A DNA stretch of 40,970 nt from Herbaspirillum sp. Its GTDB lineage: Bacteria > Pseudomonadota > Gammaproteobacteria > Burkholderiales > Burkholderiaceae_D. The notes below the pieces were generated by a model, which was given only the letters and a program-made list of their open reading frames with translations, ran no database searches and was not told the origin of the DNA. Shown piece after piece: positions 8,586 to 8,735 of this stretch. The DNA lies in the NCBI GenBank assembly GCA_019233085.1, contig JAFAMT010000145.1:1-40970 (forward strand), written 5' to 3'. The first letter of the stretch is position 1. The number at the start of each line of letters is the position of its first letter. The position numbers and the translations under genes are program-made.

Positions 8586-8616
8586 AAAAAAAGCCCGCCT
8601 CGGTGAAGAGGCGGGC
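8586..8616 (-). terminator. Rho-independent terminator upstream of leuS
   Basis: Minus strand GCCCGCCTC-TTCACC-GAGGCGGGC followed by TTTTTTT. Confidence 0.85.
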
Positions 8617-8735
8617 AAAGACCCCTGTGCCCGAGCAGGGAGGCGACAGGGATGGCAGCTAAGCTTGGCCGGTCAGGGAGGGATAAATCCCATGCCGGCC
8701 GGCTCCGGGAGCCGCGAATCCCTATCAAAACATCC
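8586..8735 (-). ncRNA. Candidate small RNA or leuS leader/attenuator
   Basis: Minus-strand series of hairpins (8700-8714, 8667-8700, 8623-8651), the last two carrying CCUCCCUG, then a strong terminator. 5' end is a guess. Confidence 0.45.

Follow-up and report, generated by a model that had tools for sequence, protein, structure and literature searches.

The intergenic region between leuS and a divergent lacI-type gene in a Herbaspirillum sp. genome probably encodes, on the leuS strand, an independent small RNA with C-rich hairpins that would act in trans on mRNAs; we put the probability of this reading, which draws on sequence analysis and on analogy with known RNAs, at roughly 0.7. The locus lies in a window of 40,970 nucleotides (the whole stretch of DNA analysed). 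A first-pass annotation had described both CCUCCCUG copies, their hairpins, and a terminator followed by seven T residues, and each of these elements was recovered at its minus-strand position (Table 1). It had placed the terminator about 135 nt upstream of leuS on the same strand, where the distance from the end of the T-run to the leuS ATG (8452) measures 133 nt, and had offered two readings for it, the end of an independent sRNA or an attenuator of leuS. The first of these is borne out by a conserved hairpin and terminator, by a conserved upstream block of their own, by a non-conserved gap that separates them from an independent leuS promoter, and by a similarity to known betaproteobacterial sRNAs that is weak but holds in both directions.

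Table 1. Positions of the candidate sRNA gene, its elements and its neighbours in the window
Feature	Position	Strand	Remarks
leuS, leucyl-tRNA synthetase	5795..8452	minus	neighbour outside the sRNA; ATG at 8452
leuS -10 box TATAAT	8498..8503	minus	context GAGCCGGTATAATGCAGGG; 3' of the terminator
Candidate sRNA gene	8586..8759	minus	longest form about 174 nt; start near 8759 predicted
Conserved 3' core of candidate sRNA	8586-8665	minus	about 80 nt
Rho-independent terminator	8586..8616	minus	9-bp stem 8616-8593 and T7 tail 8592-8586
Second hairpin (AUCCCUGUCGCC / GGGCACAGGGGU)	8621..8653	minus	loop CCCUGCUC; holds second CCTCCCTG (8643-8636)
TAGCTGC, conserved	8655..8661	minus	GCTGC invariant in 11/11; unpaired in the 3' core
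First C-rich hairpin	8667..8700	minus	holds first CCTCCCTG (8681-8674)
Perfect inverted repeat CGGCTCCCGGAGCCG	8700..8714	minus	outside the window's genome kept only in the nearest relative, G013
Three tandem 22-bp units GAANNNTTTCGA-N10	8736..8791	minus	third copy with 2 mismatches
Weak candidate promoter TAGAAA, 16 nt, AAGAAT	8766..8793	minus	consensus match only, 8/12
Divergent lacI-type regulator gene	8905..9978	plus	neighbour; ABC-transporter operon next

The region folds better than expected from its composition. The minimum free energy of positions 8580-8760 is -80 kcal/mol against a mean of -62.4 for dinucleotide shuffles (z = -4.55), and none of 200 shuffles folded as well. The window contains five copies of CCTCCCTG where about 2.2 are expected, and a same-strand pair within 60 nt arose in none of 200 windows simulated with a first-order Markov model, the pair having been chosen for this test post hoc, after inspection of the sequence. 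In the second hairpin CCCTGT (8651-8646) pairs with ACAGGG (8628-8623); in folds of the longest form, a long-range helix between GAUAGGGAU and AUCCCUGUC competes against this hairpin. The first-pass annotation had overstated the exposure of the octamer: the first copy is largely taken up in pairs (for UCCCUG, 0.13 unpaired at most), and the second exposes CCCUG alone, within an 8-nt loop, and does so solely in shorter forms from which the 5' part is absent. The conserved TAGCTGC could be a seed or part of a closing helix. We rejected a different hairpin, formed between the second CCCUG and CAGGG, which has 94% of its alignment cells paired but consists of only 5 pairs with no compensatory change, and which in the 80-nt core is energetically inferior to the CCCUGU/ACAGGG form.

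Conservation was judged from the leuS upstream regions of 30 genomes of the genus, 28 of which were long enough. In 11 Herbaspirillum-group genomes the terminator and the hairpin next to it are clear ahead of leuS. A targeted search found weaker counterparts (E 1e-6 to 1e-3) in 4 further genomes, there within the 3' region of another upstream gene; the remaining 13 of the 28 do not carry the RNA at this place. The named relatives with the highest leuS identity belong mostly to Massilia, Pseudoduganella, Janthinobacterium, and Herminiimonas, and the RNA was not found in the leuS upstream regions tested from Massilia, Janthinobacterium, Herminiimonas, Pandoraea, Burkholderia, Bordetella, and others. 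For the 11 sequences, RNAalifold gave a consensus of 21 pairs in which 95.6% of cells are paired, compared with 34-52% in slid versions. Both sides have changed in 4 of the 21 pairs against a shuffled mean of 1.9, a modest covariation among 11 related sequences. The second hairpin contributes 12 pairs (93% of cells paired, two pairs with changes on both sides), and the terminator has 99% of its cells paired. Aligned leuS upstream regions show a conservation of 0.84-0.93 across the hairpin and terminator, of 0.24-0.43 immediately past the terminator, and once more of 0.83-0.98 around the TATAAT box and the leuS start. Homologues among the 11 differ by one-base indels in the loop and by an 8-nt insertion in the terminator loop, which argues against a coding sequence; a conserved small ORF running through the RNA was rejected, its frame being broken by one-base indels and early stops across the 11 genomes. 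The leuS frame itself stays open for about 400 nt 5' of its start (window 8453-8860, minus strand) in the window's genome and in G013, though not in most relatives, probably by chance. In four relatives (L082, L083, L084, L086) leuS is directly preceded by a C/U-rich hairpin and terminator that follow another upstream protein gene, and the RNA there may be derived from a 3'-UTR; L084 scores 33.4 bits for mmgR (RF00519, cut-off 41).

The octamer has fared differently from the structure that holds it. Of the 11 leuS-linked genomes, 2 have the second copy, and only the window has the first, which does not support the duplicated octamer as the conserved functional element. At the second site relatives show GCCGCCCUG, GCCGCCUG or GCCACACUG; at the first, most carry other C-rich loops. 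The first-pass annotation had likened the C-rich motif to an anti-Shine-Dalgarno sequence, and its intuition about the class of RNA was good, the octamer being the loop motif of anti-hemB RNAs: CCUCCCUG occupies that position in 28 of 30 anti-hemB matches across Burkholderiales versus 1.5% of random segments, a count that is partly circular because those examples were found with the anti-hemB model itself. For the conserved core, however, an anti-Shine-Dalgarno role of CCUCCCUG is doubtful, since the complement of the loop CCCUGCUC is not a plain Shine-Dalgarno sequence. Exact complementarity to ribosome-binding sites was found at 25 sites in the window's own genome, two of them the locus itself, against 2 for a reversed control of different composition, a comparison to which we give no weight. 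Near the starts of 23 window genes no convincing pairing partner was found, and nothing rose above background there apart from weak loop scores for holA and cheY.

Upstream of the hairpins lies a separate AT-rich block that is 0.95-0.98 conserved in the best-sampled clade and that holds the candidate promoter. Relatives have at the matching place TTCACA, 17 nt, and AAGAAT or AAGAAG (8-9/12 consensus match). A transcript initiated here is predicted to be about 170-190 nt long, its start site being placed from sequence. The three 22-bp units in this block are likely a regulator-binding array ahead of the sRNA; the exact two-copy GAANNNTTTCGA-N10 pattern occurs nowhere else in the window's genome, and similar arrays or spacings, of up to three copies, are present at the corresponding place in relatives. 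A near-palindrome, ATGAAAACGATTTCAT, at 8873-8888, just 5' of the lacI-type gene start (8905), is probably that gene's own operator.

These features describe an sRNA candidate that is confined to a lineage and whose general kind is known; by curated tests it belongs to neither of the two Rfam families that it most resembles. More tentatively, and at odds that we hold to be short of even, it may represent an undescribed sRNA family of one Herbaspirillum clade, with its own seed (UAGCUGC and CCCUGCUC), a promoter with a triple 22-bp operator unique in the genome, and possible coupling to the lacI/ABC-transporter genes.

The rival that survives best is that the RNA is a true diverged ortholog or paralog, arisen by duplication, of anti-hemB or of the S17/toxic double-hairpin sRNAs. 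These families give the best matches in an Rfam search of the window, in which every family fell under its curated cut-off: anti-hemB (RF02837) scored 35.0 bits (E 1.4e-6, full model length; gathering cut-off 49.5), and the Betaproteobacteria toxic small RNA (RF02278) 28.8 bits (E 7e-4; gathering cut-off 50). Several relatives also give matches to the anti-hemB model, the CCUCCCUG loop is the same as in anti-hemB, and the 5' sequence UGUCGCCUCC resembles the RF02278 signature UGUCUCCUCC. The similarity rests partly on a generic combination of hairpin, terminator and U-tail, which produces weak matches in unrelated control genomes too. Direct membership in RF02837 or RF02278 was rejected on the sub-threshold scores. 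The same genome carries a true anti-hemB beside hemB (L054, 56.4 bits), a location that the candidate, adjoining leuS, does not share, and four RF02278 copies above cut-off, all away from the leuS locus. One of these (L023, G000:C318) lies beside coq7, as does the Bordetella S17 gene (PMC11722255), and is apparently the S17 ortholog. The leuS locus does have the RF02278 arrangement of a single C/U-rich hairpin with a terminator hairpin immediately after it, but the 5' end UGUCUCCUCC is absent, relatives having UGUUGCCGCC and similar sequences in place of the window's UGUCGCCUCC, and most leuS-linked relatives are without the octamer. A model built from the 11 leuS-linked sequences scores 89-105 bits at leuS and at most 38 bits elsewhere in the family; among its weaker matches in other genera (28-38 bits), several are double-hairpin RNAs of the UGUCUCC type. 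We put this rival at perhaps one chance in five. Two further loci in the window's genome (L185 and L186, G000:C476:232-294 and 1060-1121), about 800 nt apart and with near-identical cores UGUCUCCUCCUCCCUCUUUAGGAAGGAUUA, are RF02278-like at 45-46 bits, just under the cut-off, and several further sub-threshold paralogs are present.

Slightly less probable still is a reading in which another short transcript, either a small mRNA or a spurious RNA from the divergent promoter region, merely ends here with its 3' untranslated region and terminator, the locus having no regulatory RNA function and being conserved for the insulation of leuS. A matching hairpin and terminator do stand directly after a same-strand protein gene in the four further relatives, and several relatives have an ATG near the region's 5' end. 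No small ORF, however, holds its frame across the 11 genomes, and the C-rich hairpin above the terminator is kept as well, which insulation would not need; an origin from a 3'-UTR would, moreover, still allow an sRNA.

Far less credible is the attenuator, in which the RNA would be the start of the leuS mRNA and its terminator would be switched by leucine or tRNA-Leu supply. The RNA does lie on the leuS strand with its terminator 133 nt ahead of leuS, and in four relatives a 5' region (AGGCGGG) could pair with a terminator arm, but no anti-terminator pairing is common to all 11 genomes, and T-box and other leader families are all under threshold in the Rfam search of the window. A TATAAT box, which the T-run precedes by 83 nt, occurs in 30 of 30 leuS upstream regions, with or without the RNA, 13 of them lacking it; the stretch from terminator to promoter is not conserved. 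Because the box is found in all 30 genomes and conservation dips between it and the terminator, leuS transcription most likely starts below the terminator. That the box is kept even in genomes which have leuS and no such RNA argues strongly against attenuation and contradicts the second of the two earlier readings. An amino-acid attenuator or T-box leader has its terminator inside the leuS transcript; the sequence evidence places this one probably outside. A terminator upstream of a tRNA-synthetase gene thus need not mean an attenuator. Least probable of all is that the signal lies on the plus strand, where the octamer pair would read as ribosome-binding sites (CAGGGAGG, then ATG) belonging to a short gene or to the lacI leader, for although an ATG follows both octamers at a fitting distance there, it is ATA in most relatives, the 33-codon frame is not conserved, and the terminator T-run is confined to the minus strand.

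We return to an independent sRNA gene and, by analogy with S17 and the Burkholderia cenocepacia double-hairpin RNAs, propose that it encodes a trans-acting repressor RNA, whose transcription, processing, Hfq binding, targets, and effect are inferred. Transcription would start in the AT-rich, repeat-bearing block near 8760 and end at the terminator at 8586, giving an RNA of about 170 nt. This may then be cut back to a stable 3' product of about 65-80 nt comprising one C-rich hairpin and the terminator, as reported for Bordetella S17. The exposed UAGCUGC, the CCCUGCUC loop, and the C-rich loops of 5' hairpins would pair with mRNAs close to the ribosome-binding site, probably assisted by Hfq, and translation would be lowered. 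If this is true, the locus adds one more regulator, specific to its lineage, to the C-rich hairpin sRNAs that are already numerous in Betaproteobacteria, and illustrates how such RNAs vary, with the anti-hemB octamer present twice in one RNA and decayed in relatives while the hairpin persists.

Among known systems, anti-hemB (RF02837; ncS04 of B. cenocepacia, PMC5688073) has a C-rich CCUCCCUG hairpin loop followed by a Rho-independent terminator, as does the window's copy of the candidate, but the octamer is degenerate in most leuS-linked relatives, and a separate true copy stands beside hemB. For Herbaspirillum seropedicae, PMC7011215, which lists 117 sRNAs, also reports four of RF02278; the 29-nt Northern probe for its sRNA Hsnc028 (PMC7011215) matches the window's genome and several congeners without mismatch, which makes Herbaspirillum the very probable identity of this genus group, and the probes for Hsnc042, Hsnc073, and Hsnc082 have no match within the loci examined. 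The RF02278 RNAs (ncS03, ncS05, ncS27, ncS62; Bordetella S17) have, like the candidate, a short 3' form of a C/U-rich hairpin and a terminator hairpin. S17 is a 190-nt RNA that is cut by RNase E to 67 nt, is Hfq-dependent, and acts as a repressor where its single-stranded regions match the ribosome-binding site of a target (PMC11722255), and the candidate may likewise have long and processed short forms. In B. cenocepacia, the C/U-rich stretches of double-hairpin RNAs are predicted to cover ribosome-binding sites, and overexpression of ncS27 slows growth (PMC5688073). Unlike these RNAs, the candidate is without the UGUCUCCUCC 5' end, and the four canonical copies of its genome are located elsewhere. 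The NmsR sRNAs of Neisseria, which structurally resemble the double-hairpin RNAs according to PMC5688073, are likened to the candidate by description only: they have C/U-rich unpaired stretches complementary to ribosome-binding sites, as the candidate would, but the NmsR sRNAs are tandem homologues and the candidate is single.
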